From positions 1 through 64,000 of the IMG/VR virus record IMGVR_UViG_3300010412_000004: a stretch of 64,000 nucleotides of DNA. The stretch is one strand, 5' to 3'. The notes beneath the pieces are model-generated. The model ran no database searches, was not told the origin of the DNA, and worked only from the letters and a program-made list of their open reading frames with translations. The position numbers were made by a program, and so were the translations under genes. The stretch comes from a virus. Of this stretch, positions 1-64,000 are shown in pieces (within the stretch, counting starts at the first letter, position 1; each line of letters begins with the position of its first letter).

Positions 1-1600
1 ACTCTTTCAACCACTACCAGTTCATTTAGTACCACTACCAGTTCATTTAGTACCACTACCAGTTCATTTAGTACCACTACCAGTTCAACCTTAAGTACTC
101 TTTCAACCACTACGAGTTCATACTCAACCACTACGAGTTCATACTCAACAACTACTTCAACTTATTCAACTCTTTCAACCACTACGAGTTCATTCTCTAC
201 TACAACCAGTTCATACTCTACATACTCAACAACTACGAGTTCATACTCAACAACTACAAGTTCAACCTTAAGTACTCTTTCAACCACTACGAGTTCATAC
301 TCAACAACTACAAGTTCAACCTTCAGCACTCTTTCAACCACTACGAGTTCATACTCAACAACTACAAGTTCAACCTTAAGTACTCTTTCAACAACTACGA
401 GTTCCTTATCCACTACAACCAGTTCATACTCTACCACAACTAGTTCAACCTTAAGTACTCTTTCAACCACTACGAGTTCATACTCAACAACTACCAGTTC
501 AACCTTAAGTACTCTTTCAACCACTACTAGTTCCTTTAGTACCACAACCAGTTCATACTCTACTTTATCTACTACAACTAGTTCATACTCTACTTTATCT
601 ACTACAACTAGTTCATACTCTACTTTATCTACTACAACCAGTTCATATTCTACAACTTCCACAACCTTATCAACTTTATCAACTACAACTAGTTCTTTAT
701 CAACTACAACTAGTTCTTTATCAACTACAACTAGTTCTTTATCAACTACCAGTTCAACCTTAAGTACTCTTTCAACCACTACTAGTTCCTTTAGTACCAC
801 AACCAGTTCATACTCTACTACTACAAGTTCAACATATAGTACTCTTTCTACCACTACCAGTTCTACATATAGTACTTTATCCACCACTACCAGTTCCTTC
901 TCTACCACAAGTTCAACCTTAAGTACTCTTTCAACCACCACGAGTTCAAGTTCAACAACGAGTTCCACTTTATCTACAACCAGTTCCTTCTCTACTACAA
1001 GTTCAACCTTAAGTACTTTTTCAACAACTACCAGCTCTTTTAGTACCACAACTAGCTCAAGTTCAACTACTAGCTCTACTTATTCCACCTTATCTACTAC
1101 AACCAGTTCATATTCTACAACTTCCACAACCTTCAGTACCTTATCTACTACAACCAGTTCCTTCAGCACCACAACCAGTTCCTTCAGCACCACAACCAGC
1201 TCAAGTTCAACTACTAGTTCTACATACAGCACTCTTTCAACCACTACTAGTTCCTTTAGTACTACAACCAGTTCCTTATCTACCACAAGTTCAACATATA
1301 GCACTCTTTCAACAACCACAAGTTCTTCTTCTACTACAAGTTCAACATATAGCACTCTTTCAACAACCACAAGTTCATATTCTACAACTTCCACAACCTT
1401 AAGTACTCTTTCAACCACTACTAGTTCCTTTAGTACCACAACTAGTTCCTTTAGTACCACTAGTAGTACATACTCTACCTTATCTACTACAACCAGTTCC
1501 TTCAGCACCACCTCTACCACTTTTTCTACTTTGTCTACCTCAAGTTCTACCACAACTAGTTCCTCTACAACTAGTTCCTCCTCTACTTTGTCCACCACCA
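1..1600 (+). repeat. degenerate tandem repeats coding for Ser/Thr-rich stalk
   Basis: Short direct repeats are built from words such as AGTTCATACTCAACAACTAC and AACCTTAAGTACTCTTTC. A recurring unit of about 54 nt (18 codons) is visible at 250-530. Codons for Ser and Thr vary between units (ACC/ACT/ACA/ACG), so protein composition is kept while DNA identity drifts. Such arrays are prone to expansion and contraction. Confidence 0.85.
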
Positions 1601-1956
1601 CTACAATACCTCCCGGACAAGGTACTGTTGTATTTGGACATCATACCTCGGTAGATGAAAATAATGATGAGGACTTTTTAACTAATTGGGAAGGAACAGG
1701 AACTATTTCTGGATCTGGAGACTCTGAAAAGTTAATAATCAACGAAGGTGAATATATGCAAATGATTTCACCTTGGAATTTAGGTGTTGGGAAGGCTAGA
1801 ATTACATTAAATAAATATATAGAAGGTTCAGGTCCCTCTATATCAACAAAGTATAAGACAGGTAATTCTGTGGCTAATTGTGAGTCAGATACATGGCATG
1901 ATTACTCTACTTACTTTATGTGTCAGGGTTATTTTTTGGTTAGGTTAGAGAGATAA
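1..1956 (+). CDS. Ser/Thr-rich repeat protein with C-terminal domain (5' partial)
   Basis: The frame is open from the first base of the window, so the start lies upstream. About 530 residues are almost only Ser, Thr, Tyr, Leu and Phe, in units such as STLSTLSTTTSSYSTTTS. A proline hinge (TIPPGQG) follows, then a globular end of about 110 residues with two cysteines and several Trp and Tyr, closing in a beta-like GYFLVRLER. This looks like a mucin-like stalk joined to a head domain, as in a phage tail fibre or spike. Known: long Ser/Thr tracts are typical O-glycan acceptors. Inferred: receptor or surface contact. A single TAA separates it from the next gene, in the same frame. The exact function is unknown. 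Confidence 0.75.
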   Translation, partial: TLSTTTSSFSTTTSSFSTTTSSFSTTTSSTLSTLSTTTSSYSTTTSSYSTTTSTYSTLSTTTSSFSTTTSSYSTYSTTTSSYSTTTSSTLSTLSTTTSSYSTTTSSTFSTLSTTTSSYSTTTSSTLSTLSTTTSSLSTTTSSYSTTTSSTLSTLSTTTSSYSTTTSSTLSTLSTTTSSFSTTTSSYSTLSTTTSSYSTLSTTTSSYSTLSTTTSSYSTTSTTLSTLSTTTSSLSTTTSSLSTTTSSLSTTSSTLSTLSTTTSSFSTTTSSYSTTTSSTYSTLSTTTSSTYSTLSTTTSSFSTTSSTLSTLSTTTSSSSTTSSTLSTTSSFSTTSSTLSTFSTTTSSFSTTTSSSSTTSSTYSTLSTTTSSYSTTSTTFSTLSTTTSSFSTTTSSFSTTTSSSSTTSSTYSTLSTTTSSFSTTTSSLSTTSSTYSTLSTTTSSSSTTSSTYSTLSTTTSSYSTTSTTLSTLSTTTSSFSTTTSSFSTTSSTYSTLSTTTSSFSTTSTTFSTLSTSSSTTTSSSTTSSSSTLSTTTTIPPGQGTVVFGHHTSVDENNDEDFLTNWEGTGTISGSGDSEKLIINEGEYMQMISPWNLGVGKARITLNKYIEGSGPSISTKYKTGNSVANCESDTWHDYSTYFMCQGYFLVRLER

Positions 1957-1959: not shown

Positions 1960-4900
1960 ATGTCCCTTGTTTGTCAAACAAATTCAAGAATTGCTGATGC
2001 CAATAGAAATTGGCAGAGTTCTTGTAATGTGGATATAACTAGTTGGGATAAATCCAATGAGTTTATTATATCTACATGGGCTTTGTCTAATGTTCACAAT
2101 GATGACGCAGATTTTAAATTGCAGTGGAGGAGAATAGGAGGCTCTTTCTCTGATGTTGGAGCAGATACGGAGATAAGATGGGGAACGAACACAGTTCTAA
2201 CTAATGGAGGTAATTTATTATCTGGCAACAGTGCCGGGTGTTTATCCACATGGGATAGTGGGACAGAGAGTGAAGGGGATAATACGGCATACGCCTCTAA
2301 CATAGCGAATGGAAATTATTGGGAAGGTCAATGGGCTCTAGGGTTTGGTTCTGGAGCACTTGATAATCAGGAATATGAGATACAACTCGTTTGTGTTACT
2401 TATCCTGGATCTGCTATTTGTCAAACCTCGATAACTACAGCGGCAGGAGCAACCTCATCATCTACTACAACTACCACCTTCACCACTACAACAAGTAGTA
2501 TCACCACTACATCAAGCACCTCAACGGTATCTACTACAACTACCACCTATAGTACCTTATCAACTACAACCAGTTCCTCCACTACTACTACAACCTTCAG
2601 CACTCTTTCAACAACCACTAGCTCATATTCTACTACTACAAGTTCATTTAGTTCTACTACTACAAGTTCATTTAGCACCACAACTAGTTCATACTCTACA
2701 TTATCTACTACATCTACTACTCTCAGCACTCTTTCAACTACAACCAGCTCTACATATAGTACTTTATCAACCACAACCAGTTCAACATATAGCACTCTTT
2801 CAACAACTACAAGTTCCTTCAGCACCACAACCAGTTCCTTCAGTACTACCACAAGTTCCTTATCTACCACTACAAGTTCATTATCTACCACTACAAGTTC
2901 ATTATCTACCACTACAAGTTCATTATCTACCACTACAAGTTCATTATCTACCACTACCAGTTCCTTCAGTACTACCACAAGTTCCTTATCTACCACTACA
3001 AGTTCATTCTCTACTACTTCTACCACCTTTAGTACCTTATCCACAACAACCAGTTCTAGTAGTTCTAGTACAACCACAACCTCGAGCACTTTTACCACCA
3101 CAAGTTCTACTCTAAGCACTACAACTACGGAACCTCCATCAACCGAGGTAGAAGATGTAGTTATTGATTTTTTACCAGAAACTACAACCACCACCACAAC
3201 CACTTTTTCCTCTACTACCACCACAAGTTCTACTCTGAGTTCTATATCAACAACTACCTCAAGTAGCACAACTAGTTCTACCACAACTAGCTCAACATAT
3301 AGCACTCTTTCTACCACAACTACCACAACAACAAGTTTTAGCTCAACCACCACTACAACCTTCAGTACTTTATCAACAACCAGTTCAAGTACAACCACCA
3401 GTTTTACTACAACTAGTTCCTTCTCTACCACCACTACAACCTTCAGTACTTTATCAACAACTACCAGCTCATACTCTACCACTACCACAACCTTAAGTAC
3501 TTTATCTACTACTACGAGTTCCTTCTCCACCACTACCACAACCTTAAGTACTTTATCTACTACTACGAGTTCCTTCTCCACTACTACCACAACCTTAAGT
3601 ACTTTATCTACCACTACAAGTTCGTATTCTACAACCACTACAACCTTCAGTACTCTTTCTACCACTACAAGTTCTTCATCAACTACCAGTTCAACCTATA
3701 GCACCTTATCAACCACAACTAGTTCTTTCTCAACTACTAGTTCAACCTTCAGCACCCTTTCTACCACATCTAGCTCTACACTGAGTACTACCAGTACTTA
3801 TTTAACTACTAGTTCTTCGAGTAGTACATATTCAACAACGAGCACGAGTGAGACCTCCACAAGTACCTATAGTACTACTTCCAGCACAGAACCACCATTA
3901 ACTACTTATTCTTCTACAACCAGTTCTAGTAGCACCGTTTCTACTACAACCTCAACTTACTCTACTACAACTAGTTCTTTAAGCACCACAACTTCAAGTT
4001 CTTATACAACTACAACAAGCACATATAGCAGTACATCAAGTACGGTATCGTCAAGCAGTACGCTGAGTTCAACGACTTCTACGCATAGCACAACTACAAG
4101 TAGCAGTTTTTCAACTACCACTAGTTCTTCAGCTTCAACAACTTCGAGCACTTATTCTACTACGAGTAGTAGTTCTACATCAACTACAACTACTCTATCA
4201 ACTACCACGAGTACTACTCTGAGTACCACGAGTACTTATTCTACTACGAGTACTACTCTGAGTACCACGAGTACTTATTCTACTACGAGTACTACTGGAA
4301 GCACATCAACAAGTACATTTAGTTCTTCATCTACTACTACTACAGAAACATATGGAACCTCCTCCAGTAGTACCACAAGTAGTACAACCTACTCTACTAC
4401 TACATCTACTACAGCCTCAACCAGTAGCACCAGCACCACAGAAACTACTACTTCCTCAGGAAGTTCATCTAGTACTACCAGTAGCACATATCCACCTACT
4501 CTCATACCTCATATAGGATTTGAGAGAGATGGTATAGATACAATATTTGAAAGAGACTCAGAAACTTTAGTATTTGAGAGATACTCAGAAACATCAGTAT
4601 TTGAAAGAGACTCAGAAACCTTAGTATTTGAAAGAGACTCAGAAACCTTAATATTTGAGGAGGTGATACAAATGGGTAGTGAATCAGTTCCAGGAGAATT
4701 CTTTAAACAACCATATGAGAGCATGGTCGCCTATGGCGGTTTTTCTAATGTAATGGAGAGTGGGGAGACCATCACATTAGTTAGCAGTACCGCAACAGCT
4801 CTTGATGTAAACGGTTCGGACGCCTCCTCAGATATACTACAGGGAAATCCTGCTATCTATAATGATGATGATGGAAACCCTTGGAGGTTAGGTATTAGAG

Positions 4901-5010
4901 TAGTAGCAGGGGAGGCGTCAAAAAGCCCCTATAAAATAACCTTTAAAATATTGACCTCTCTTGCGAATAAATGGGAGGTAGATTGTTATGTGAATGTGGA
5001 GGAATTATGA
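1960..5010 (+). CDS. large Ser/Thr-rich fibre-like protein (1016 aa)
   Basis: Residues 1-165 form a globular N-terminal domain (FKLQWRR, NYWEGQWALGFG, EYEIQLVC) of a beta-sandwich type common in phage structural proteins. Residues about 166-845 are a Ser/Thr tract with short breaks (TEPPSTEVEDVVIDFLP near residue 390; STEPPLTT near 645). Then come five FERDSETLV-like 9-residue repeats and a C-terminal domain of 112 residues. The start is ATG three bases after the stop of the preceding gene and in the same frame; the SD is weak (AGAGAG). The C-terminal domain has its own SD and ATG (see 4672). Probably a fibre or surface-exposed virion protein; this is inference from composition and from the glycan cassette downstream. 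Confidence 0.75.
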   Translation: MSLVCQTNSRIADANRNWQSSCNVDITSWDKSNEFIISTWALSNVHNDDADFKLQWRRIGGSFSDVGADTEIRWGTNTVLTNGGNLLSGNSAGCLSTWDSGTESEGDNTAYASNIANGNYWEGQWALGFGSGALDNQEYEIQLVCVTYPGSAICQTSITTAAGATSSSTTTTTFTTTTSSITTTSSTSTVSTTTTTYSTLSTTTSSSTTTTTFSTLSTTTSSYSTTTSSFSSTTTSSFSTTTSSYSTLSTTSTTLSTLSTTTSSTYSTLSTTTSSTYSTLSTTTSSFSTTTSSFSTTTSSLSTTTSSLSTTTSSLSTTTSSLSTTTSSLSTTTSSFSTTTSSLSTTTSSFSTTSTTFSTLSTTTSSSSSSTTTTSSTFTTTSSTLSTTTTEPPSTEVEDVVIDFLPETTTTTTTTFSSTTTTSSTLSSISTTTSSSTTSSTTTSSTYSTLSTTTTTTTSFSSTTTTTFSTLSTTSSSTTTSFTTTSSFSTTTTTFSTLSTTTSSYSTTTTTLSTLSTTTSSFSTTTTTLSTLSTTTSSFSTTTTTLSTLSTTTSSYSTTTTTFSTLSTTTSSSSTTSSTYSTLSTTTSSFSTTSSTFSTLSTTSSSTLSTTSTYLTTSSSSSTYSTTSTSETSTSTYSTTSSTEPPLTTYSSTTSSSSTVSTTTSTYSTTTSSLSTTTSSSYTTTTSTYSSTSSTVSSSSTLSSTTSTHSTTTSSSFSTTTSSSASTTSSTYSTTSSSSTSTTTTLSTTTSTTLSTTSTYSTTSTTLSTTSTYSTTSTTGSTSTSTFSSSSTTTTETYGTSSSSTTSSTTYSTTTSTTASTSSTSTTETTTSSGSSSSTTSSTYPPTLIPHIGFERDGIDTIFERDSETLVFERYSETSVFERDSETLVFERDSETLIFEEVIQMGSESVPGEFFKQPYESMVAYGGFSNVMESGETITLVSSTATALDVNGSDASSDILQGNPAIYNDDDGNPWRLGIRVVAGEASKSPYKITFKILTSLANKWEVDCYVNVEEL
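2455..4490 (+). repeat. degenerate Ser/Thr-coding repeats, second array
   Basis: Repeated words such as TTATCTACCACTACAAGTTC (five near-identical 21-nt copies around 2860-2960) and ACTACGAGTTCCTTCTCCAC, and near 4200-4290 CTACGAGTACTACTCTGAGT. The array is interrupted by two non-repetitive acidic or Pro-containing spacers near 3130-3180 and 3885-3900. Confidence 0.85.
4519..4653 (+). repeat. five 27-nt in-frame repeats (FERDSETLV type)
   Basis: Five consecutive 27-nt units start at 4519, 4546, 4573, 4600 and 4627. They read FERDGIDTI, FERDSETLV, FERYSETSV, FERDSETLV and FERDSETLI. The third to fifth are nearly identical at DNA level. The array ends directly in the SD of the nested start at 4672. 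Confidence 0.9.
4672..5010 (+). CDS. possible independently translated C-terminal domain (112 aa)
   Basis: Inside the long fibre gene and in the same frame there is GAGGAGGTGATACAA followed by ATG, a better ribosome-binding site than that of the full-length gene. The product would be a compact 112-residue domain (MGSESVPGEF... to KWEVDCYVNVEEL) without Ser/Thr tract. It resembles small stand-alone phage beta-rich proteins whose middle reads AGEASKSPYKITFKI. It may be made both as the fibre C-terminus and separately, giving different stoichiometry in a trimer or complex. Evidence is only the SD and domain boundary. Confidence 0.45.
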   Translation: MGSESVPGEFFKQPYESMVAYGGFSNVMESGETITLVSSTATALDVNGSDASSDILQGNPAIYNDDDGNPWRLGIRVVAGEASKSPYKITFKILTSLANKWEVDCYVNVEEL

Positions 5011-5439: not shown

Positions 5440-5937
5440 ATGAAAAAGAATTTATTGATGTTGGTAGTTTTGTCAATGGTTGCGATGGTTACTATGGGGG
5501 AAGGCTCTTGTACCAACTGGGGATGGAATATGGCTAATATTTTTCCTCAGCCAAAGGAGAGCATCTGCAGTACCATTCCTGAAGGCGAAAGTTTTATCTG
5601 CCAAAGACTCAGAAATCCTGAGTTTACTCACTCTGTTCTCTATATTTCAAATGCCGCTCTTCTTGACAGTATGAATCTAGAGGGCATAGAAAGAGAGGAG
5701 GAGGTGATTAATGATGTGATTTGGTATATAGACCAACCTTCCATCTCCTATGCTATGTTTGAGAAGTACGTTCTGGAAAAGAGTCAATCCTTGGTAGTGA
5801 TTGCGGCCGCGTCAGAGTTGAGTATGTTTCAATTCAATAACAATCCTATTTTGCCAGCGGATAGGGATATGATTAAGTGGTCTCTTAATCGTACAAAAGG
5901 ATTGATCGACATCGCAAAGAAGAGGAAAAGTGGTTAG
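5440..5937 (+). CDS. exported protein with signal peptide, unknown
   Basis: 165 residues from ATG at 5440, preceded by AAGGAGGCACAAA. The N-terminus MKKNLLMLVVLSMVAMVTMG is a clear signal sequence, followed by EGSC. The Cys could be a lipid attachment site, but the sequence before it is not a good lipobox. The mature part has three or four cysteines and no recognised motif. Position between a membrane protein and the sugar cassette suggests an envelope-located job such as lysis or superinfection exclusion. Function unknown. Confidence 0.65.
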   Translation: MKKNLLMLVVLSMVAMVTMGEGSCTNWGWNMANIFPQPKESICSTIPEGESFICQRLRNPEFTHSVLYISNAALLDSMNLEGIEREEEVINDVIWYIDQPSISYAMFEKYVLEKSQSLVVIAAASELSMFQFNNNPILPADRDMIKWSLNRTKGLIDIAKKRKSG

Positions 5938-6634
5938 CAGGTATCCCTCCTCTAAAAGGGGGAGGGATTCTCTTCCTGAGTTTAATGTAATTGTTCCGGT
6001 AGTAAGGTTAGATCTTTGTAAAGATTTAATCAATTCTATTGAAGAGAATACTATTCTTCCTAAACGTGTAATCATTATAAATAACACAGGTAGAAGGTAT
6101 TTTCCTAGGTCTAAGAAACTTAAAATTGAGGTTTACCCTAGCATTTCGGGAGATGTAAATGAATCTTGGAATCTAGGTGTATCCCTTGTAGATATAACAG
6201 TGGATTATGTATCTATACTAAATGATGATATTGTATTAAATAAATGGTTTTTTCAGAGAGTAGATGAGACCTTAAGGTCTCATAAAGATTGTGGAGTAGC
6301 CTGTCCTTTATCCGTCTCAACTCTAGAGGAAATGGGTAATGGTAAAAAAAAGCCCTGTATAGTTAGAATGGAAAGAAGAGAAGGCTATGCTTTTACGTTT
6401 AGAAAGAAATTATTGGATAGGATACCTCCTATCCCTATACATAGAATTAAAATATTTCACGGTGATGATTGGTATTGGTATTGGACTCTTACCCACACTC
6501 ATTTCTGGTACCAAGATTTAGGAAATATAATCTTTCATCATGTAGGTTCTTCAGTCCTACTCAAAGGATTTAGGGATATCAAGAAGAAGGAGAGAAATGA
6601 GTGGGAAAGGATAATGAATGAACTTGGAGGATAA
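5930..6634 (+). CDS. GT-A fold glycosyltransferase (family 2-like)
   Basis: 234 residues, GTG start overlapping the preceding stop by 8 nt. N-terminal FNVIVPVVR and the strand VIIINNTG are typical of the nucleotide-sugar fold. YVSILNDDIVLN near residue 95-106 carries the DxD-like metal motif, and FHGDDWYWYW near residue 178 is in the position of the acceptor/catalytic acidic region. Would transfer a sugar from a nucleotide donor. First gene of a three-gene overlapping run with an acetyltransferase and a methyltransferase, immediately after the Ser/Thr-rich fibre genes, so a virion or cell-surface glycan is the likely target (inference). Confidence 0.75.
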   Translation: MVSRYPSSKRGRDSLPEFNVIVPVVRLDLCKDLINSIEENTILPKRVIIINNTGRRYFPRSKKLKIEVYPSISGDVNESWNLGVSLVDITVDYVSILNDDIVLNKWFFQRVDETLRSHKDCGVACPLSVSTLEEMGNGKKKPCIVRMERREGYAFTFRKKLLDRIPPIPIHRIKIFHGDDWYWYWTLTHTHFWYQDLGNIIFHHVGSSVLLKGFRDIKKKERNEWERIMNELGG

Positions 6635-7172
6635 TAATAGAGAGATTTCTCCTTATCTTAAGATGGACCGTTTTAGTTATGGTAATATCGTTAGAATAGG
6701 TAAGAACGGTAATATAAAAGTAGGTAGTTTTACTTCTATAGCGAGTGGCGTGAAAGCTATTATGGTAGGACATAATACGGATTGGATTTCCACCTATCCC
6801 TTCTCCTCGAGAGAGATGAGAAATTATTTTAAGAATGGTCTTCCTAGTTCTATACATGGTCATCCTAGAGAATATGGAGATATATTGATTGGTTCAGATG
6901 TTTGGATAGGTCAAGATGTGTCGATAATGGGAGGTATTTACATAGGTCATGGATCAATTATAGGAGCCGGGTCTATTGTTACAAAGGATGTGGCTCCTTA
7001 TTCTGTGGAGGCGGGAATTCCTTCTGTTACTCGTAAAATGAGATTTACTCAAGAACAAATAAATAGATTGCTTGATATAGAATGGTGGAATTGGCCTATT
7101 GGTAAAATTAATAGTAATTTGGATTTGATATGTAGTCCTAATATAGGTGAATTTTTGAGGATACATGGATGA
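6618..7172 (+). CDS. left-handed beta-helix (hexapeptide) O-acetyltransferase
   Basis: 184 residues. Hexapeptide repeats are evident (IVRIGKNGNIKVGSFTSIA, DILIGSDVWIGQDVSIMGG, YIGHGSIIGAGSIVTKDV), and VGHNTDWIS has the catalytic-type His of the CatB/xenobiotic acyltransferase branch. The PYSVEAGIPSVTRKMRF ending is typical of sugar acetyltransferases such as those in O-antigen or nodulation pathways. Acetyl-CoA would be the donor. Starts inside the 3' end of the glycosyltransferase gene with GGAAAGG upstream, implying translational coupling. Likely acetylates the sugar added by its neighbour (inference). Confidence 0.85.
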   Translation: MNLEDNNREISPYLKMDRFSYGNIVRIGKNGNIKVGSFTSIASGVKAIMVGHNTDWISTYPFSSREMRNYFKNGLPSSIHGHPREYGDILIGSDVWIGQDVSIMGGIYIGHGSIIGAGSIVTKDVAPYSVEAGIPSVTRKMRFTQEQINRLLDIEWWNWPIGKINSNLDLICSPNIGEFLRIHG

Positions 7173-7711
7173 CCTTTATATTCAAAAGATATAAAAATAT
7201 GGAATTTGTTCCTCTTATTAAGGAACTCGTTCTGCTTTATGAACCTTATACTTATGTAGAGATAGGGGTTCAAAAAGGATATACCTTTAATCAACTATCT
7301 AAGATGTCTCAGATAAAAAGGGCTGTGGCCGTAGATATTAAAGTTTTACCTTCGGTGATTTCCATAAAAGGAAAAACAGAATTCTATGAAATGTCCTCTA
7401 AAGAATTCTCTAAGGTATGGAAGGATACTATAGATTTACTTTTTATAGATGGAGATCATAAATGGACTTCTGTAATGAATGATTTCGAATCTTTGTCACC
7501 TTTTGTAGCTGATGGACACGGGTTAATTTTGATGCATGATACACACCCGAATCATGAAAGTCTTATGACAGAAGGATATTGTTCCAGTGCGTGGATAGCC
7601 GCGAGTATTATCCATAACAAGTTTAAAGAATTTGAGATTGTAACCCTTCCTGGTCCTTATGCTGGATTATCTATTATAAGAAAGATTAAAAAAGGTCATT
7701 TAGGGAGGTAA
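7169..7711 (+). CDS. class I SAM-dependent methyltransferase
   Basis: 180 residues. YVEIGVQKGYTFNQL is the SAM-binding motif I, and DLLFIDGDHKWTSVMNDFE and GLILMHDTHPNHE are characteristic of the Methyltransf_24 / sugar O-methyltransferase branch. Overlaps the acetyltransferase stop by 4 nt (ATGA). The three genes form a compact cassette that could build a methylated, acetylated sugar. The target is not shown by sequence; the adjacent Ser/Thr-rich fibre proteins or host-surface glycans are candidates. Confidence 0.8.
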   Translation: MTFIFKRYKNMEFVPLIKELVLLYEPYTYVEIGVQKGYTFNQLSKMSQIKRAVAVDIKVLPSVISIKGKTEFYEMSSKEFSKVWKDTIDLLFIDGDHKWTSVMNDFESLSPFVADGHGLILMHDTHPNHESLMTEGYCSSAWIAASIIHNKFKEFEIVTLPGPYAGLSIIRKIKKGHLGR

Positions 7712-48138: not shown

Positions 48139-48345
48139 ATTTAATAAATAAATAATATTTAGTAAGTATATAATATTTAGTAAACCCCCCTCAATTTAGT
48201 TTATGAAGACCATTTAGTAAACAGCTACAGAGGGTCTGCCACAATATTCTGAGTAGAATTCATGAGGTCCTCAAAACCAATTCTTCCCGCCCTCCTCCAC
48301 ACTCAAATAATCTACTTGACAACCCTTTTACAGGTGTGTTACTTG
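48139..48345 (+). promoter_or_regulatory. leader of packaging genes: iterons, element copy C, sigma70-like promoter
   Basis: TATTTAGTAA copies near 48168 and 48174 and ATTTAGTAAA near 48211 repeat the left iterons. Recurrent element copy C (ATTCTGAGTAGAATTCATGA) is at 48245-48265. A promoter TTGACA (48316-48321), 17-nt spacer, TTACTT (48339-48344) precedes the small terminase gene by 41 nt. Nothing else coding seen in 48044-48385. Confidence 0.6.
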
Positions 48346-48385
48346 TCTATTTCATTACCCTTACGCCTACGAAAGGAAACCTACC

Positions 48386-49264: not shown

Positions 49265-49311
49265 ACGCATATAACGTATGTATTGACATAAAATCGTTTA
49301 AAATTCATTGA
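49264..49311 (+). promoter_or_regulatory. recurrent regulatory element, copy D, with TTGACA and AACGCATATAA
   Basis: AACGCATATAA (49264-49274), TTGACA (49283-49288), ten bases, TAAAATTCA (49299-49307). Same order and spacing as copy B at 36882-36929, and both are followed by AAGGATTTTT or AGGATTTTT just before the start codon. Confidence 0.65.
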
Positions 49312-49345
49312 ATCAGCCTGTGGGCTTTTATAAGGATTTTTCACT

Positions 49346-51223: not shown

Positions 51224-51257
51224 TCTAAATAAAATCCAGCGGTGCGGCAAAATTTAC

Positions 51258-51287
51258 TTGACAGCCCTTTGCCTTTTCTGTTATACT
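51258..51287 (+). promoter_or_regulatory. sigma70-type promoter before portal gene
   Basis: TTGACA (51258-51263), 18-nt spacer, TATACT (51282-51287). The preceding ACTTGACAGCCCTTT resembles the promoter at 48316 (ACTTGACAACCCTTT). Likely drives the head genes. Confidence 0.78.
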
Positions 51288-51325
51288 TGGTATTATCATT
51301 ATTCTTTTTGTAGATAGAGGATATT

Positions 51326-52930: not shown

Positions 52931-52938
52931 GAGGTAGT

Positions 52939-54609: not shown

Positions 54610-54663
54610 TCCTAAAAAGTTTTACGGCCATATTAACTCCTAAATGGAAGGAGGTGAATAAGT

Positions 54664-55359
54664 ATGACATTAATTCGTGGAGGGGATACCCCTCATGTTC
54701 TTCATGGTGTAGCCAAGGACTATAAACGTCTTTACTATTCAGACCATCTGGCTGCCTTAAGAGTTGATGTTACTCTTCAGGCTGGCTATGGTCTGGTAGA
54801 ACAAGGTTCTGCTCTAGCTATGAACATTTCAGCCGCTGGTAATATTGGGAAGTTGGTTCCGTACAATCCTACTTCCTGGGATTTTTCCTCACTCCATCCA
54901 GGTCGTGCCTTCCTTGTTGCCAATACTGGAACAACGGATAAATTCGTCTATGTGGCGATGGAGGACAGTTATAAATTCGCTATTGGGGATGATGTTATCC
55001 TTAATGATAACACAACCTCGGCTGAAAACAAAGGTGCGATCACAGCTATTGATAGAACCTCTGAGGTTCATCGGGCTAAGATCACCTTTACCGCGGCAAT
55101 TGGTGGTACAGCTTTCTTGACCACCCGTTATGCGTATCTTGCCGTGGAGGCAGGAGATAATACCAACAATTATTCAGATTGTGTTGGTATTCTGGAGAAA
55201 TCAGTTGACACCGGCGCTGGTCAATACGCCAAAGGTGCCAACGCCACCTTGATCATTGGTAACGCGGTCCTTTATGAGGGTCTGCTCACCAATGTTGACT
55301 CGGCGGCAAAAACAGACCTGTCCGCTGGTTCATTTGGACAGTACCTTTATATGAGATAA
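54664..55359 (+). CDS. head decoration protein-like
   Basis: 231 residues, SD GGAAGGAGGTGAATAAGT. Beta-rich, with Ala/Gly/Thr (YGLVEQGSALAMNISAAGNI, KFAIGDDVILNDNTTSAENK). Position directly before the major capsid gene and sequence type fit capsid-stabilising decoration proteins, which bind the outer capsid surface. GC-rich codon use like the capsid gene. Confidence 0.72.
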   Translation: MTLIRGGDTPHVLHGVAKDYKRLYYSDHLAALRVDVTLQAGYGLVEQGSALAMNISAAGNIGKLVPYNPTSWDFSSLHPGRAFLVANTGTTDKFVYVAMEDSYKFAIGDDVILNDNTTSAENKGAITAIDRTSEVHRAKITFTAAIGGTAFLTTRYAYLAVEAGDNTNNYSDCVGILEKSVDTGAGQYAKGANATLIIGNAVLYEGLLTNVDSAAKTDLSAGSFGQYLYMR

Positions 55360-55387: not shown

Positions 55388-56716
55388 ATGCCAAGAGGTG
55401 CTTCCGACATTCCAGAACTGAGGTTGGAGGTTTTACAGGATTTCATGGAAACCTTCATGACTCCTCCCAACTTCGTTCTGCAAAATATGTTTCCTACTCG
55501 TCAATCGCCGTCGAGTACCATTAAGTGGGAAAGTCGTAGAGGAGGAAGAGGTTTAACACCCTTTGTTCCTCCAGGTGCTCCTGCACCACAGACGGCACCG
55601 CTCGGTGTTGCACAACATCAAGCGGAGGCGGCATACTGGAAGGAGAAAATGCCGTTCGACGAGGAATTTCTTAATAACCTACGTAGACCAGGTACCACGG
55701 TAGAGCATCAGTCGGCGGAACAAACGCTGGCTGAGAATTTGGCGAGTCTTAAAAATAGGTCTAGTCGTAGAAAAGAGTGGATGTTCGCTCAGATGCTCTT
55801 CAATAATGGTTTCAGCTATAAGGTGAAGCAGGGATATATGGCGTCGGTGGATTATCAAATTCCATCTGTCAACCGTGTAACCCTAGCTAGTGCTCGAAAC
55901 TGGAACAATGGAGGTAGTAAAAACATTCTGGAGGACATTCAATCAGGTAAGCAGGTAATTCATGATGCTTGTGGTGCGAAGGTGAATATCGCCCTTTTTA
56001 ACTCGAGTGTCTTAAAACTGCTCGCCAACGATTCGGCTATCCAAACCCTTTTGAGAAAGGATGCTTTCGGTCTTGGTAACCTTTATGGTAACCTAGCGGC
56101 CAACGTCCACGACATCATTGGGGTGAACGCTGCCGTGCTGGGAGCCTTGCTTGATATTGATCAATTCATAGTTTATGATGAGCAGTATGAGATTCAAGCC
56201 TGGCTGACCGCCGCCGTAACAGGCGGATCCACTACCTGGGTTTCAGTTGACTCTTCCCAAGATTTTGAGGCTGGAGGAGTTCTTAAAATCCATGATCAGA
56301 GCACTGGTGATTGGGAGGAAAGGGTAATTCTTTCTGTGAGTCAGGAAACTCAAAGAATCCAGATTGAGTATCCTACCACCTATAATTACCTGCCAGGTCA
56401 GGATTTTGTCCGTATGGCTAAGAAGTACGTCCCGGATGACAAATTCGTGATGATGGCCACACGAGTAGATGGTCAACCCATTGCCCAATACTATGAGGCT
56501 CCCTTTGGGAGGGCTCGTAGATGGGGACAGTATGTGGACCAGAGTGAAGATTGGGATCCTGAAGTTGTTTGGATCCGCGTTCAAGATAAAGGCCTCCCTG
56601 TTCTAATGCAGAGAGATGCCATGTATGTCCTCACGGTGTGGACACCGCCTGAGTTAGCGGCTACGTCAACCACAACCACTACTTCTTCAAGTAGTACGAC
56701 CACGACCACCGCGTAA
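55388..56716 (+). CDS. major capsid protein with Thr-rich C-terminal tag
   Basis: 442 residues from MPRGASDIPE (SD GGAAGGAGGTGAAAAAT). Fits the phage major capsid protein E family: FMTPPNFVLQNMFPTRQSPS, EKMPFDEEFLNNLRRPGTTV, ESRRGGRGLTPFVPPGAPAP, VWIRVQDKGLPVLMQRDAMY. The last 22 residues are TSTTTTTSSSSTTTTTA, a Ser/Thr tag that is not part of the fold and also ends other structural proteins here. Most GC-rich codon use in the window, as expected for the most abundant protein. Confidence 0.87.
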   Translation: MPRGASDIPELRLEVLQDFMETFMTPPNFVLQNMFPTRQSPSSTIKWESRRGGRGLTPFVPPGAPAPQTAPLGVAQHQAEAAYWKEKMPFDEEFLNNLRRPGTTVEHQSAEQTLAENLASLKNRSSRRKEWMFAQMLFNNGFSYKVKQGYMASVDYQIPSVNRVTLASARNWNNGGSKNILEDIQSGKQVIHDACGAKVNIALFNSSVLKLLANDSAIQTLLRKDAFGLGNLYGNLAANVHDIIGVNAAVLGALLDIDQFIVYDEQYEIQAWLTAAVTGGSTTWVSVDSSQDFEAGGVLKIHDQSTGDWEERVILSVSQETQRIQIEYPTTYNYLPGQDFVRMAKKYVPDDKFVMMATRVDGQPIAQYYEAPFGRARRWGQYVDQSEDWDPEVVWIRVQDKGLPVLMQRDAMYVLTVWTPPELAATSTTTTTSSSSTTTTTA

Positions 56717-56744
56717 TAGTGGCTGGTTGGAAGAGGATCAATCG

Positions 56745-57002
56745 ATGAATATCGAAAAGGTAATAATTAAGGTTACACTTAAAGGTGTTTCTAATCAATG
56801 GGAAGAAGGGGAGGTGTTATTTCCTCCCCTTCCCCAGGAAATTTTGCAAGAAATTGACCTAGGTAGGGATACCGTTGAGGTAGTAAAAATGGATGAAATT
56901 CCAAATAACATAATAGGATTACCTTCAATTACTACCTTAGTAAAAACCAAATCTACTTTGAAAAGAGAGGAAACCCGTATAAAGAGAGTCAGGAGAATGT
57001 AA
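56745..57002 (+). CDS. small head protein (85 aa), unknown
   Basis: From MNIEKVIIKVTLKGVSNQWE (AAGAGGATCAATCG upstream; an upstream in-frame Met lacks spacing). Basic C-terminus (KREETRIKRVRRM). Stop shares a base with the next start (TAATG). Likely a head-completion or connector accessory by position. Confidence 0.6.
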   Translation: MNIEKVIIKVTLKGVSNQWEEGEVLFPPLPQEILQEIDLGRDTVEVVKMDEIPNNIIGLPSITTLVKTKSTLKREETRIKRVRRM

Positions 57003-57454
57003 TGGAAAGAACTATGTTTATTCTTGAACTCAAACAAAGGGTAAAAGGTCTTTATAAGTATCTAGATAAAGTAGATTATGATAATGCTTTAGATGATGCC
57101 TCCAGAGAAACTGGATGGACATTTCCTGTTTCTGAGGATATTAAAATACTTTGGATTTTAAAAAGAGCCACAAGGCATCTTTATTCATATTTATTATCTG
57201 AATCTGCCCATAAGTTTAAATATGAACAGATTAACCTTCAACAAAGATATGAACATTACCGACAACTTGTAATAGATTTTGATAAAGAGTTCACTATATT
57301 TGTAGAGGAAAGGATTGATTTATTCGCAGGAGTTGATCCTTTTAAAATGTTTGCAACCAAAATAGATGCTGGATTCTCTTATGACATAGTAGGTAATGAA
57401 GATACATATAATAAAAATAATGAGGTAATATTTACCCCTACTGAGAATGATTGA
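57002..57454 (+). CDS. head-tail connector-like protein (150 aa)
   Basis: Helical (MFILELKQRVKGLYKYLDKV, DIKILWILKRATRHLYSYLL) with an acidic C-terminus. Follows the capsid gene by two, where connectors of the gp6/gp15 type normally lie. TAATG overlap at the start and TGATG at the end show tight coupling. Assignment by position. Confidence 0.58.
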   Translation: MERTMFILELKQRVKGLYKYLDKVDYDNALDDASRETGWTFPVSEDIKILWILKRATRHLYSYLLSESAHKFKYEQINLQQRYEHYRQLVIDFDKEFTIFVEERIDLFAGVDPFKMFATKIDAGFSYDIVGNEDTYNKNNEVIFTPTEND

Positions 57455-58128
57455 TGACCATTGGACCTGATATAAAGGAAGCTATTGTAGAGATAGGAAC
57501 CTTATTTACAATAGAAAGGGAATCTGGGGATATCACAGGGGAATACCTTAGTTATAAATCTAATGCTCAGGTTACCAAACCGTTCATTAGAGAATTCTTT
57601 TTAGATGCAGAACTATGTTATGATACGGAGGGTATTGGTGGGGATATAATCAAGTTCAATGCTACTGGAACTCGATATATCATCATGAACCGTACCCCAA
57701 TTCAGTTTGAGGATACCGTAATTAAGTGGGAGACCACTTTATATAAATCCAATACTCTCATTAATGTATATAGGCAATCATTAGTGAGAAACAGTCAAAC
57801 CTATAGAATGGATGTTACTTGGTCTCTTGTAGAATATAATAGATATGCCCTTATAACATCTCCACTCTATGGTATAGACCTTGAAACTGATGAACAATTA
57901 GGATTGTTGGGATTACAGGTACATGAGATGTATGTTCCAACATCCTATGATATTAAAGCACATGATCGGGTTCTTGTAATTGGGGAAAATGAGTATTTTA
58001 GGGTAGAGGCTGTAAAGAAGAGAAGATATGAAGGTGTGAATGTCCTTGAAATTGGTTATGATACAAGAGCCACTTCCACCACTACTTCCTCCTCAACTTC
58101 AACCTCTACAACCACTACCACAGCTTAG
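57454..58128 (+). CDS. head or neck protein with Thr-rich tag
   Basis: 224 residues. Beta-rich with IERESGDITGEYLSYKSNAQ and YDIKAHDRVLVIGENEYFRV, which fits a head-tail joining or stopper protein (the last domain resembles head-closure folds). Ends ATSTTTSSSTSTSTTTTTA, the same type of tag as the capsid protein. Confidence 0.62.
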   Translation: MTIGPDIKEAIVEIGTLFTIERESGDITGEYLSYKSNAQVTKPFIREFFLDAELCYDTEGIGGDIIKFNATGTRYIIMNRTPIQFEDTVIKWETTLYKSNTLINVYRQSLVRNSQTYRMDVTWSLVEYNRYALITSPLYGIDLETDEQLGLLGLQVHEMYVPTSYDIKAHDRVLVIGENEYFRVEAVKKRRYEGVNVLEIGYDTRATSTTTSSSTSTSTTTTTA

Positions 58129-58172
58129 GGGTTCAATTTTGGGATCTTTTTTCAGTATAGGAGAATATACTG

Positions 58173-58370
58173 ATGCCAACTAGTATTTATCAAGACTTTT
58201 GTCCAATCTGTAAGACGAGCACTTCTATATGGAAGGAGGGTAGGAAGATAACCTTGATGTGTCCTAGATGCAATCAAATTATCGCTGTTTATGAAATTCA
58301 AAATGATGTAGGTCATGGGAGTTTGCCTAAGGGAGAGTCTGTCCCTATTAATCCTAGTCACATCACTTGA
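58173..58370 (+). CDS. zinc-ribbon protein (65 aa)
   Basis: CPICKTSTSIWKEGRKITLM then CPRCNQIIAVYEI: textbook CxxC...CxxC ribbon. SD AGGAGAATATACTG. Its TGA stop overlaps the TTG start of the next gene. A zinc ribbon among head-tail genes is uncommon; function unknown. Confidence 0.68.
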   Translation: MPTSIYQDFCPICKTSTSIWKEGRKITLMCPRCNQIIAVYEIQNDVGHGSLPKGESVPINPSHIT

Positions 58371-58813
58371 AATTTCATGTTTTTGTACTGAGATCAAATA
58401 GGCCAAATTCTAACTTACCTAGGACCATCGAGTCTTTCTTAGGATTTGCAGATTGTATTTGGAAAGTCAGAAATTCTACCGAAATAAATTTTTTAAGTGT
58501 CCGAAGTGATTGGTTTGGTATTTTTTATGATAATGAATATATAGACGATGTCCTTAAAAAGTCTCTTGAAGAGTTTTTTGACAGGATGGAAGGAAATTCA
58601 AAAAAAGACCCTGTTCAAAGTGTGTTACTTTATAAAAGAATTCTAACTCCTAACATAGCGGCTTTTTCTGGTACACTTAGAATTTTTGGTAGAGATGTAT
58701 GGTTAAAACCAGATTTTATCCCTTTTTGTTCCTATACAATGCTATCCACAGAGGTTATTTTTAGAGGTAATATAAGAGAGCATGGCTTTTGTTTTCAATA
58801 TTCAAGATTTTAG
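58367..58813 (+). CDS. hypothetical protein (148 aa)
   Basis: TTG start overlapping the preceding TGA. KFHVFVLRSNRPNSNLPRTI is followed by a mixed alpha/beta chain with FGRDVWLKPDFIPFCSYTML. No family recognised. By position a head-tail joining factor or a non-structural insert. Confidence 0.6.
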   Translation: MKFHVFVLRSNRPNSNLPRTIESFLGFADCIWKVRNSTEINFLSVRSDWFGIFYDNEYIDDVLKKSLEEFFDRMEGNSKKDPVQSVLLYKRILTPNIAAFSGTLRIFGRDVWLKPDFIPFCSYTMLSTEVIFRGNIREHGFCFQYSRF

Positions 58814-59300
58814 AAGGTGGCAAACCGCCACAGTTCGTATCATAAGGAAAATGATAATAGAGAAAAATGATTTCCCTATGAGATGTGCCGTAGGGTATGT
58901 TAATCGTGTTCGTAGTGATATAGATAGACAGACCTACTCTGGTTATTACGCTCCTTATAATGATCGATATGCAAAATGGAAACAGAAACATTTTCCAGAA
59001 TCTGAAGGGTTTTGGCATTTGAGAGGATTTCTTAAAGGTAATTTAAGACCCTTCAAAGTAAGGGAGGGATGGTTTGGAGGAATTTCTGGAGACATTATAG
59101 TTCCAGGTTCTTCTTGGTTTGGGGATGGATTTAGTGGGAGGCCTGTTAGTTTAGCCCTATATGGATATTGGGGAGAATATGGAAGAACAGGACAACCTCC
59201 ACGTCCATTATTTAATCCTGCTCTTGAAGAGTTTAAAAGGAATGAATGGCAGGATGAAATAACCACAACTATGCGTAAAATCAGAGAGGCTTGGATATGA
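58782..59300 (+). CDS. neck/tail-completion protein (HK97 gp10-like)
   Basis: 172 residues. The C-terminal half LALYGYWGEYGRTGQPPRPL and FNPALEEFKRNEWQDEITTT is typical of HK97 gp10-type tail-completion proteins (E-x-G-T-x-x-x-P-A-R-P-F pattern). Overlaps the preceding gene by 32 nt and the next by 4 nt (ATGA). Confidence 0.7.
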   Translation: MAFVFNIQDFRRWQTATVRIIRKMIIEKNDFPMRCAVGYVNRVRSDIDRQTYSGYYAPYNDRYAKWKQKHFPESEGFWHLRGFLKGNLRPFKVREGWFGGISGDIIVPGSSWFGDGFSGRPVSLALYGYWGEYGRTGQPPRPLFNPALEEFKRNEWQDEITTTMRKIREAWI

Positions 59301-59533
59301 GGATAATTGATGTGTATCAAAAGGACACCTTTGTAGTTTTAGAACTTTCCTTAATACAACTCGAACATCTTGTTAAATGGATGAGCAGGGCGGAGAGTTC
59401 CTATGATGGAGAGAAAGAACCAGAAATGAGGATCGCAGGCGATTATGTAGTTAAGGAATTCTATAGGGGGTTATTAGATCTAGGCGAAAAAATAAAGCCT
59501 GGATTTATGGCAAATGTTGAAAGGGGTACTTAG
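59297..59533 (+). CDS. hypothetical protein (78 aa)
   Basis: From MRIIDVYQKDTFVVLELSLI (ATGA overlap). Beta-helix-like, charged. Precedes an intergenic gap with element copy E. No family recognised. Confidence 0.6.
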   Translation: MRIIDVYQKDTFVVLELSLIQLEHLVKWMSRAESSYDGEKEPEMRIAGDYVVKEFYRGLLDLGEKIKPGFMANVERGT

Positions 59534-59543
59534 TACTAGTTTT

Positions 59544-59564
59544 TAAAATTCGTGTAGAATTCAG
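59544..59564 (+). promoter_or_regulatory. recurrent regulatory element, copy E
   Basis: AAAATTCGTGTAGAATTCAGC, 49 nt before the tail terminator-like gene. Best match to the consensus. Confidence 0.65.
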
Positions 59565-59612
59565 CATTTCAGCACATACATTTTTTAGCTCAATTAAGGA
59601 GCACAACACAAA

Positions 59613-60089
59613 ATGTCACTAGACCCTACAGCCAGACGTTCTAATATAAAAGATAGTGTTAAAAAGCATTTTGTGGATAATGTTGAGACAATAGAAGGAA
59701 TTCCTGTTCTTTTTGATAGGTCCCTCATTTCTCCTGACCTTCAAGATAGATCAGTACATAGATGGGTTACAGTGGTTATGGGAGAGATGGAGATATCAGA
59801 CCTTTCGGATATATTAATTGAGGTGTATTGTTGCACAAGGCAGGATCCTGAAGGATTTAAGCTCGCACAGGTAGTAGATAAAGTAATGACTCATTTATCA
59901 GTGGACCCTACAACCTCTCCTACCAGTCTTAAAAGAATTCCTTTTTATCGTAGTTATTTCGATCAACCATGGGAAGAGATAGGTTCGCTCATTGTCCAAC
60001 AAGTAATGGAATCTGCAGAATTAAATGCCTCGGACGAGACTACATATAAGATATTAACTGTAAGGTTAAGAACTCCTTCTAAGGTGTGA
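59613..60089 (+). CDS. tail terminator-like protein
   Basis: 158 residues. RSNIKDSVKKHFVDNVETIE, VHRWVTVVMGEMEISDLSDI, LIEVYCCTRQDPEGFKLAQV: an alpha/beta layout like the gpU/tail-terminator group, and it sits just before the tail tube gene. SD TAAGGAGCACAACACAA. First gene after element E. Confidence 0.62.
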   Translation: MSLDPTARRSNIKDSVKKHFVDNVETIEGIPVLFDRSLISPDLQDRSVHRWVTVVMGEMEISDLSDILIEVYCCTRQDPEGFKLAQVVDKVMTHLSVDPTTSPTSLKRIPFYRSYFDQPWEEIGSLIVQQVMESAELNASDETTYKILTVRLRTPSKV

Positions 60090-60090
60090 T

Positions 60091-60387
60091 ATGGGCAGAA
60101 AATTCTTTTATTGTAGGAAATGTGGGAAAAAGTTGATACAGAAGATGCCAAATGGTCTTTGGAGATTCATATTTGGAGTATATAAGGAGGAAGATAAAAA
60201 TCAATTTAACATTCCAGATGGTGAGCCTCCTATTGAAATGCTCGTATATGGTTCTATTAAGATGAGATGTTTTAGGAAGACTTGTAGAGAGTGGAATACT
60301 CTGCATTTTTTTCCTTCTTCAGATGTATTCAATCTTGTTGGAGAAGAAAAAGGTAGTTCAATCAGAGATGAAGTTCTGGCTAAATAA
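60091..60387 (+). CDS. zinc-binding protein (98 aa)
   Basis: FFYCRKCGKKLIQKM and MRCFRKTCREW supply CxxC-type sites. Start is one base after the preceding stop. Aromatic-rich middle. The region contains an unusual number of zinc-ribbon proteins; role unknown. Confidence 0.62.
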   Translation: MGRKFFYCRKCGKKLIQKMPNGLWRFIFGVYKEEDKNQFNIPDGEPPIEMLVYGSIKMRCFRKTCREWNTLHFFPSSDVFNLVGEEKGSSIRDEVLAK

Positions 60388-60417
60388 TATTTTATAATAG
60401 AAAGGAGGTGAAAAAAT

Positions 60418-61044
60418 ATGCCACGTTATGGTCCTGTTACTAAAGATACCACCACAGTAGCTCTAGGTCTTGCTCAGATTCGTGTTGGTGCATCGGCGGC
60501 TAATATCACAAAGATTTACCCTATATTAGCCTCGGGAGCCTCTATTGGAGCCTTAGCCAATACGAAATTTACTGGCAATACTGAGTTTTTCAGATTGGAG
60601 TCTGGTTTTCCATTGTTAGAGGATGCTATTTTTCCTTTAAGGGAGGCCGCGGCTCTCGAATGTGCTTTTAAGGAACTTACCCCCGCCAATGTTGCCTTGG
60701 CGAAAGGGTTGGATCCTGCTTCATATTCTGAAGTCCATACTGGTTCTGTTCCTTTAGGAACCATTGCGGCTCCTACAGTACTCAGGATGGAAGCTATTTA
60801 TACCTATCCTGATCAAACGAACACCATGAACATTATCTTCCCCAGGTGTCAGGTTGCGGCTTCTATTGAAATGGAATTTGCCGCGGAGGAACCTGCCGCC
60901 GTTGCCATCGTAATTGAGGCTAAGAGGGCGGATAGTGAAATTACTGGAGGTAATGCAGTTTGGGATGCTATGCCTCTAGGACGTATTGTTTGGGATGATG
61001 GTACTGGGTTTACCACTACCTCAACCACAACCACCACCGCTTAA
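60418..61044 (+). CDS. major tail (tube) protein-like with Thr-rich tag
   Basis: 208 residues, SD AAAGGAGGTGAAAAAAT. Ala/Thr-rich beta protein (GASIGALANTKFTGNTEFFR, GSVPLGTIAAPTVLRMEAIY, ASIEMEFAAEEPAAVAIVIE). Position between the tail terminator and the frameshifted chaperone is that of the tail tube subunit. Ends TTSTTTTTTA, the third structural protein with this tag. Confidence 0.73.
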   Translation: MPRYGPVTKDTTTVALGLAQIRVGASAANITKIYPILASGASIGALANTKFTGNTEFFRLESGFPLLEDAIFPLREAAALECAFKELTPANVALAKGLDPASYSEVHTGSVPLGTIAAPTVLRMEAIYTYPDQTNTMNIIFPRCQVAASIEMEFAAEEPAAVAIVIEAKRADSEITGGNAVWDAMPLGRIVWDDGTGFTTTSTTTTTA

Positions 61045-61782: not shown

Positions 61783-64000
61783 ATGCCAGATAGGTCTCTT
61801 AATCTGGGTACTATATTCACTGCTAATATTGATGACTTTATCGCCAAAGTAAGAACCTTAAGAAGTACTCTTGGAAGTCTCAATGAAGCATACAGTAGGG
61901 CGGGATCATCAAGTGAAAAAGCCTTTAAACAAACCGCCGCAGGAGTAGATAAGGTTGGAACTTCTGTAAAAAGAAGTTCAGGAAATATACTTGAATATAG
62001 TAAACAGATAGGAAAGGTTGAAGGAGCCTGGAAACGTGTATTGGCTGCCATGAAGGTCACCGCATCATATGGCCTGGCAGCCTCTGCCATTTTTAGCCTA
62101 GTTCAGGCATTTAAGGCAGGTGCCAAGGAAATCGTAGATTACGATCAGGCTCTTAAGAACTTGCAAGCCATCACTCGTTCTACTAATGCTGAAGTAACAG
62201 GGATGGGTGAAACAATAAAGAGTGTGGCCTCCGAAACTAAATTCTCCACTGGTGAAGTAGCCGAGGGAATGGTTTTATTAGGTCAAGCAGGTTTCTCCGC
62301 TACTGAGTCGATGCAGAGTATGCAATCAGTAGCTGACCTAGCCACAGGAACTTTAACAGATTTAGGAACAGCCTCTGATTTAGTTACTACTACCATTAGA
62401 GCATTTGGTCTTAGCACTATTGAGTCTTCTAGAGTAGCTGATGTTATGGCCAATGCTGTTAACCGATCTAAACTAACCATAGACAAATTAAGAACTGCTT
62501 TTAACTATGTTGGTGCGGCGGCGTCTCAAACTGGTCTATCGCTGGAGGAAACTGCCGCATCAATGATGGTTCTTGCCAATAATGGTTTGAGAGCTAGTAC
62601 GATAGGTACAGGTCTCAGACAAGTTCTCGCCAGACTTCTTGCACCCAACAGAAACCTCAGAGAAGAATTTGAAGCTCAAGGGATTGCCTTAGAGACGGTC
62701 AATCCTAAATTGGTAGGTTACCAAACTGCCATGAAGAATATGACCAGTGTTATATGGGATAATGCGAGAGGTGTGGTAGATATGACCAAAGCCTACCGCC
62801 TGTTTGGTCTTAGAGGTGCTCAGGCCGCTGCCGTGTTAGCAAGAGCCTTCGCAGGAACAGGTCCTGGTAGTTTTGATGATATGCTCAACAAGACCTATGA
62901 GATAGGATCTGCGGCAGATATGGCAGGTACGCAGATGGAAGGTCTTGGTGTTAAAATTAAGAACTTAGCAGATAGGGCTAAGTTGATAGCTGTGGCCTTT
63001 GGTGAAGGAGGAGCCATAAGTGCCCTTAAGGTATTTATTGATGCCTTAAGAGGTTTAGCCAAGGTGATGGCTGATTTCTTGAGTACTGATTTAGGTAGAA
63101 TCATTACTTCCTTTGGTGTGTGGTCTGTTACTATTGGACTAACCACCAGAGCCATAGTAGCATTAATTCCTGTGATGAAGAGTTTAGCCGCCGTAATCTC
63201 CTTAACTCGTATAGCCACATTTGCCGTAGAACTTATAAAGGTTTCTCAGGCTGTAGGTTTAGTTAGGGCGGCTATGTGGGCTTTACAAGGAGCCATGGTA
63301 GGAGCATTAGGTCCTATTGCTCTTGTAGCTGTGACACTTGGTGGTATTATTACGGCTATAAGATGGTATATGGGGTCTACCCAAAGAGCCATAGATTCTA
63401 CTGTTAAGTTGACTCAGGCTTCGGCCACAGCGGCGGATACGCTCAAGGTATATGAGGCCTCCCTTAGAGATATTGCATCTAAAAAAGAGCAGGGCATTGA
63501 TGTTACTCGAGAACATGCCGCTCAAATTAGGAGGTTAGTGGTAGCTTATGGACCTCTTAAAGGGAAGGTAGACGAATCAACTGAGTCATTAGAGAAGAAT
63601 ATTGAGGCGGTTAGGAAAGCATATGGAGAGGAAGTACAAAAAAGATTAGAACAAAATACTCGTTTAGTTGAGTTATATGCACAAAGGTTGAAGGAAGTAG
63701 AACTTAGGTATGGAATTCTTAAGGTTTCTCAAGATATTTTAGGGACTTCAGTAGATTGGCTGATAGATAAGTATATCAGATTGTTAAATCTATTGGCCAG
63801 AGTTGTAACATTTTTTCCAAGGTTAATACTGAGTATTCTTTCTTACGTTCCTGTTGTAGGCACCGCAATTGGTAAATTAAGTGAGGAGATAGATGAATTA
63901 TTAAGTAATTGGGGGGATAAAGTAAGGGTGATTGGTAAGGATACCAAAGAGTTTAAAGGAGTAATGGAGGAGCAAACCAATGCCTTTGTTGAGATGGCTA
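61783..64000 (+). CDS. tape measure protein (3' partial)
   Basis: At least 739 residues; runs off the window. ATG after AGGAGAATAAGGGAT. TP901-type core: VDYDQALKNLQAITRSTNAE, ASETKFSTGEVAEGMVLLGQ, AGFSATESMQSMQSVADLAT and LANNGLRASTIGTGLRQVLA. Membrane-like segments near residues 440-530 (GVWSVTIGLTTRAIVALIPV, GALGPIALVAVTLGGIITAI) and 660-700. Sets tail length and enters the host envelope on infection in known phages. Confidence 0.92.
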   Translation, partial: MPDRSLNLGTIFTANIDDFIAKVRTLRSTLGSLNEAYSRAGSSSEKAFKQTAAGVDKVGTSVKRSSGNILEYSKQIGKVEGAWKRVLAAMKVTASYGLAASAIFSLVQAFKAGAKEIVDYDQALKNLQAITRSTNAEVTGMGETIKSVASETKFSTGEVAEGMVLLGQAGFSATESMQSMQSVADLATGTLTDLGTASDLVTTTIRAFGLSTIESSRVADVMANAVNRSKLTIDKLRTAFNYVGAAASQTGLSLEETAASMMVLANNGLRASTIGTGLRQVLARLLAPNRNLREEFEAQGIALETVNPKLVGYQTAMKNMTSVIWDNARGVVDMTKAYRLFGLRGAQAAAVLARAFAGTGPGSFDDMLNKTYEIGSAADMAGTQMEGLGVKIKNLADRAKLIAVAFGEGGAISALKVFIDALRGLAKVMADFLSTDLGRIITSFGVWSVTIGLTTRAIVALIPVMKSLAAVISLTRIATFAVELIKVSQAVGLVRAAMWALQGAMVGALGPIALVAVTLGGIITAIRWYMGSTQRAIDSTVKLTQASATAADTLKVYEASLRDIASKKEQGIDVTREHAAQIRRLVVAYGPLKGKVDESTESLEKNIEAVRKAYGEEVQKRLEQNTRLVELYAQRLKEVELRYGILKVSQDILGTSVDWLIDKYIRLLNLLARVVTFFPRLILSILSYVPVVGTAIGKLSEEIDELLSNWGDKVRVIGKDTKEFKGVMEEQTNAFVEMA

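Follow-up and report, generated by a model that had tools for sequence, protein, structure and literature searches.

Threonine-rich C-terminal tags on virion proteins of an uncultured tailed phage and the glycosyltransferase family that accompanies them

To our knowledge, glycosylation of phage virions has been described in few systems. Mycobacteriophage Che8 and its relatives are reportedly among them (Freeman et al. 2023, Cell Host Microbe 31:1216). The capsid and tube proteins of Che8 have a common short ending, ..KTGS and ..SDGS, respectively. In the published work on mycobacteriophages, glycans are placed at the C-termini of capsid and tail-tube proteins, together with phage-encoded glycosyltransferases and an O-methyltransferase (PMC12619734, PMC11600133, PMC11256854). 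Here we describe the first 64,000 positions (the window) of IMGVR_UViG_3300010412_000004, a 79,012-base record of an uncultured virus, a tailed phage, in which five virion proteins end in serine/threonine-rich (Ser/Thr-rich) tags closing with TTTTTA, and the glycosyltransferase (GT) family, GT-A, that accompanies such tags in unrelated phages. By analogy, our best reading is that this system may be a tag-based version of the mycobacteriophage C-terminal glycosylation of capsid and tail tube.

As in the mycobacteriophages, the GTs are encoded by the phage: GT-A and GT-B match Glycos_transf_1, and GT-C weakly matches Glycos_transf_2. The capsid and tail tube of this phage also have a C-terminal region in common, seen at the level of sequence, where a modification would not show. 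Unlike in the mycobacteriophages, this common region is a long Thr/Ser tag, it is found on up to five proteins, including a neck protein and two tail proteins, and Ser/Thr-rich stalk proteins accompany it; moreover, GT-A and GT-B have no match among 50,697 phage records (tblastn, 1e-5) and no counterpart in cultured phages. No relevant account of polythreonine tags in phages came up in a literature search. Outside phages, GtfA and GtfB glycosylate serine-rich-repeat adhesins. The system described here resembles GtfA/GtfB in pairing a GT4-type enzyme with Ser/Thr-rich low-complexity candidate acceptors in the cytoplasm, but these acceptors would be virion proteins, and the likeness of GT-A is mainly that of the general GT4 core.

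Extra C-terminal modules on virion proteins are also known as folded domains. The capsids and tail tubes of phages can carry Ig-like accessory domains (Fraser et al. 2006, as cited in PMC8718954), the C-terminal Ig-like domains of the T5 and YSD1 tail tubes project outward (PMC8718954), and mycobacteriophage Douge has outward C-terminal domains on both capsid and tube (PMC13033339). The tags likewise give several unrelated virion proteins an additional module at the C-terminus, but they consist of a low-complexity Ser/Thr run of 10-65 residues, in frame with the body of the protein and with no folded domain. By this analogy, surface exposure of the tagged C-termini is plausible.

Tagged proteins and their untagged homologues

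The major capsid protein (Phage_cap_E; 55388..56716, plus strand; PF03864 7e-32, phrog_29 1e-43) ends in ATSTTTTTSSSSTTTTTA, and its tag, TSTTTTTSSSSTTTTTA (codons 56663-56713), lies beyond the end of its untagged homologues. A neck-region protein, named by position only (57454..58128, plus strand), has the tag TSTTTSSSTSTSTTTTTA in codons 58072-58125, and a probable tail-tube protein (60418..61044, plus strand) has TTTSTTTTTA in codons 61012-61041. The tail tube was identified from the position of its gene, between a tail-completion gene (phrog_222) and a long tape-measure-like open reading frame (ORF), and because its relatives have weak matches (about 1e-4) to PHROGs annotated 'major tail protein'; its AlphaFold model, from 13 sequences, has a predicted local distance difference test (pLDDT) score of 39. 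Readthrough past the capsid tag was ruled out, as the capsid gene stops with TAA TAG. Two further tagged tail proteins lie just outside the window, at record positions 70295-71698 (ending in T14A) and 71701-73854 (ending in TTTTTSSTTTTTTA). All five tagged proteins fall within a 23-gene structural block of the 104 ORFs (P = 3.7e-4), and the chance expectation of a T5A ending over 104 ORFs is about 4e-6.

An earlier sequence-only reading of this DNA had noticed the TTTTTA endings of the capsid, neck and tail-tube-position proteins. The translations bear this out and extend the trait to five proteins; the tags on the first three, put at 11-22 residues in that reading, measure 17, 18 and 10 residues, close to that range. 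Its remark that each tag uses different codons also held when the tag codons of the record were compared; in the tag at record 70295-71698 the codons repeat locally (ACA ACA ACC).

The same reading had proposed a search of viral metagenomes for capsid homologues with and without the tag. When 2.9 million viral contigs were searched with the capsid, 42 loci were obtained, and both kinds occur among them. Tagging of the three proteins is all-or-none: beside tagged capsids 21/21 necks and 17/17 tubes are tagged, and beside untagged capsids 10/10 necks and 6/6 tubes are untagged, counting complete genes only and with some near-copies included. In alignments, the untagged homologues stop at the conserved end of the protein or a few residues past it (capsid ..IYVLTV, neck ..EDTR, tube ..LGRIxW), and the tags begin after this conserved end, following a short added linker in the capsid. 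Tag length in the capsid clade ranges from 14 to 65 residues. The trait switches on one branch only of the capsid tree (support 98/97), and within the tagged clade all three proteins retain it, over a range of capsids about 56-70% identical to that of the window. Records G035 and G037 are tagged. Two capsid relatives lie on contigs of metagenome-assembled genomes, labelled Melioribacter (untagged) and Bacteriovoracaceae (cut inside the capsid gene).

Glycosyltransferases that accompany the tag

To relate the tag to gene content, full records of five tagged phages, all near-complete, and five untagged ones, of which three are near-complete and two are fragments, were compared by unbiased clustering. 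A gene scan detected no Ser/Thr tracts in the untagged records. Only four families are present in 5/5 of the near-complete tagged records and in 0/5 of the untagged ones: a stalk protein and three GTs. The stalk family is that of the window protein at 1960..5010 (plus strand, 62% Ser/Thr), which follows a second stalk ORF at 1..1956 (plus strand, 73% Ser/Thr, open at the 5' end of the record); the Ser/Thr stalks that had been read at 1-5010 are real. GT-A (GT4-like) lies at record 73951-75219, GT-B at 75803-76945 and GT-C at 78247-78975. GT domains as such were rejected as a marker of tagging, since they fail to separate tagged from untagged records and only these specific families do so. The untagged records have another GT cassette, behind the neck gene. 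The tag and the cassette were thus exchanged jointly, though as one phylogenetic event. In untagged sister phages (L187:4724-15229, record G007 44724-55229) a different cassette of about 10 kb lies between the neck and tail-completion genes; judged by eye, it holds two glycosyltransferases and sulfotransferase-, aminotransferase-, radical-SAM- and methyltransferase-like ORFs.

GT-A is present in 14/50 records, all 14 of which hold tags or stalks, and for several of these phages no tail gene in common with this one was detected. A scan of the collection gave 80 GT-A loci, from which near-copies were removed before counting. Ser/Thr tags or stalks are found at 33/44 GT-A loci of at least 42% identity and at 18/27 loci of 26-33% identity, compared with 0/36 loci of a control GT taken from the untagged cassette (Fisher 2.5e-13 and 1.8e-9, respectively). 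The control loci were collected with an alignment query, an earlier single query having given three. Tracts occur in 3/24 control records, and the richest of these, G095, also encodes GT-A. At four loci (L352, L379, L381 and L384) two to three small tandem proteins of 70-136 residues end in TSTSTS-type tags and lie directly upstream of a distant GT-A homologue, at a distance of about 1-5 kb, with a tag style common to the tandem proteins within each locus.

The structure model of GT-A is confident (pLDDT 93) and has a GT-B fold. Its best Foldseek matches are MshA, GlgM, BshA, PimA and WaaG, with E-values down to 7e-15 and TM-scores of only about 0.4, and its profile matches to PDB glycosyltransferases cover mainly the general GT4 core. 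The EX7E motif is present, with E320 and E328 invariant in 29 aligned sequences; fold and motif both agree with a GT4 assignment.

The sequence-only reading had looked for the tag enzymes in a trio of glycosyltransferase, acetyltransferase and methyltransferase genes at 5930-7711. The hexapeptide acyltransferase (6618..7172, plus strand; PF00132 5e-9) and the methyltransferase (7169..7711, plus strand; PF13578 2e-12) have Pfam matches, while the putative glycosyltransferase-like ORF (5930..6634, plus strand) has no Pfam or PHROG glycosyltransferase match of its own, and the key enzymes lie beyond the window, in the cassette at record 73951-78975. In the closer group, many GT-A loci hold GT-B, GT-C and a methyltransferase as well, often with homologues of the window genes at 5930, 6618 and 7169, and the module is also found at loci with no detected homologue of the tape measure or tip gene of this phage. 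Since their homologues are co-located with GT-A elsewhere, the genes at 5930-7711 are probably a displaced piece of the same module. The record begins inside a Ser/Thr stalk and ends, at position 79012, behind the GT cassette; in the related record G003 the stalk region lies next to the cassette region, which makes it probable that the two cassettes of this phage are contiguous in its complete genome.

A second tagged lineage and shared endings

In a second tagged lineage, the tagged tail protein belongs to phrog_807, a 'major tail protein with Ig-like domain', which links the tags to the Ig-like accessory domains described above; no similarity to the tail protein of the first lineage was detected. 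In 64/72 phrog_807 relatives the body stops near SPYFDV and a Ser/Thr-rich end follows, a figure that is not a census as the query set was itself tagged, and three relatives (L508-L510) end flush. Four others (L458, L459, L463 and L464) have Ser/Glu-rich tails (e.g. SASESSVSSESV), possibly another style of tag. A GT-A profile search of the loci around the second-lineage tail protein found none within the flanks; nonetheless, 13 second-lineage contigs were retrieved by the GT-A searches.

Across genomes, tags of the same genome tend to end alike. The terminal residue agrees in 73% of same-genome tag pairs, against 32% in shuffled pairs (0/5000), in a set without paralogues, without the capsid clade and without loci that had been picked because they end in Ala. 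Matching endings include E/E in L208, V/V in L239 and L350, and A/A in L293 and L300. The codons are not alike (Thr third-codon-position identity 0.322 versus 0.308 shuffled), and on this test tag-to-tag copying of DNA was rejected. The same terminal residue without the same codons suggests that the peptide is under selection exerted by a common partner, which supports the earlier suggestion of selection at the protein level.

Proposed function and alternative explanations

A shared tail on unrelated proteins, its all-or-none occurrence and a GT-A family that travels along with it suggest that the tails are probably sites of sugar coating. We therefore think it likely, by a fair margin of confidence, that the tags are appended O-glycan acceptors modified by phage GTs, with GT-A as the candidate tag reader. 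This is the function that the sequence-only reading had suggested; it is the best supported by association, while the glycan lies beyond the reach of sequence. We infer the attachment of sugar, the enzyme that starts the chain, the order of the enzymes and the benefit as follows. The tags would be unstructured Ser/Thr acceptor peptides appended to the C-termini of the capsid, neck, tail-tube and two tail proteins, on which phage-encoded glycosyltransferases would place short O-glycans in the host cytoplasm. GT-A, the sole cassette member common to all phages compared, would recognise the tag and attach the initial sugar. Extension and capping of the glycan would then fall to GT-B, GT-C and the methyl- and acyltransferases, and the same enzymes would glycosylate the Ser/Thr stalks. 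The outcome would be a sugar-covered particle that could gain shielding, adhesion or stability.

Several observations weigh against this proposal. Between about a quarter and a third of the GT-A loci have no tract in their flanks, and some tagged records, several of them fragments, have no GT-A (e.g. G017, G018 and G023-G025). Untagged relatives also have GTs, of other families, and because the tag and cassette of the capsid clade changed on a single branch, that part of the evidence counts once. Among the 22 GT-A records without a tract at the locus, 10 have one elsewhere, by codon pattern, and in an eleventh a tail protein is tagged. GT-A could also serve the stalks alone. In an alternative that we consider unlikely, the tags carry no modification and act by themselves as flexible bristles or weakly adhesive tails, and the GTs serve only stalk adhesins or host surface glycans. 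The flexibility of low-complexity Ser/Thr tails follows from their composition, the GT genes adjoin tail and stalk genes, and the glycan itself was not observed; however, C-terminal tags are present in GT-A loci and records with no stalk in view, and a last residue common to unrelated proteins of one genome would be needless for a mere bristle.

That defined, genome-specific residue would also suit a peptide-binding partner, and the tags might then be docking peptides instead of sugar acceptors, bound by another protein of phage or host such as a decoration protein, assembly factor or C-terminal protease. We regard this as less probable still, as no families other than the stalk protein and the three GTs follow the tag in near-complete records and tag length varies widely in the capsid clade. 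The least probable explanation, to which we give very little credence, sees in the tags neutral low-complexity sequence that expanded by DNA slippage or was copied from gene to gene as DNA. The ACA ACA ACC repetition in the tag at record 70295-71698 indicates that slippage probably contributes to length, but same-genome tags have no common codons, and tags with a defined last residue persist on all three proteins across the diverged capsids and occur solely within the structural block. This explanation is largely refuted by the codon test together with the all-or-none pattern.

Returning to the tags as glycan acceptors, they come in dialects, among them TTTTTA, TTTTTV, TTTTTE, TSTSTTTTL and SSTTTGE. 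It is possible, and we suggest it tentatively, that uncultured phages have a widespread and previously undescribed system of virion O-glycosylation, in which the GT4 family GT-A reads genome-specific dialects, the tag is placed on many unrelated structural proteins, and tag and enzyme evolve together as a surface-coating module that can be exchanged. The combination of tag and GT-A cassette offers a sequence-readable signature for many uncultured phages and a candidate tag-reading enzyme, and the same capsid is available in natural tagged and untagged versions. This would make it possible to test how a sugar coat is built, what role it plays, and whether a short encoded tag suffices to direct O-glycans.

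Two minor observations concern other genes of the window. A tail of the same composition had been assigned to a zinc-ribbon protein (10145-10435, minus strand); its Ser/Thr stretch is internal and its C-terminus is EPPKATDENSDNR, so it does not have this tag, and the end of the ORF overlaps another at 9232-10233. The tape-measure-like protein (window 61783-64000, continuing to record position 66984) contains 12 copies of an [RK]EGG motif between residues 1235 and 1467.
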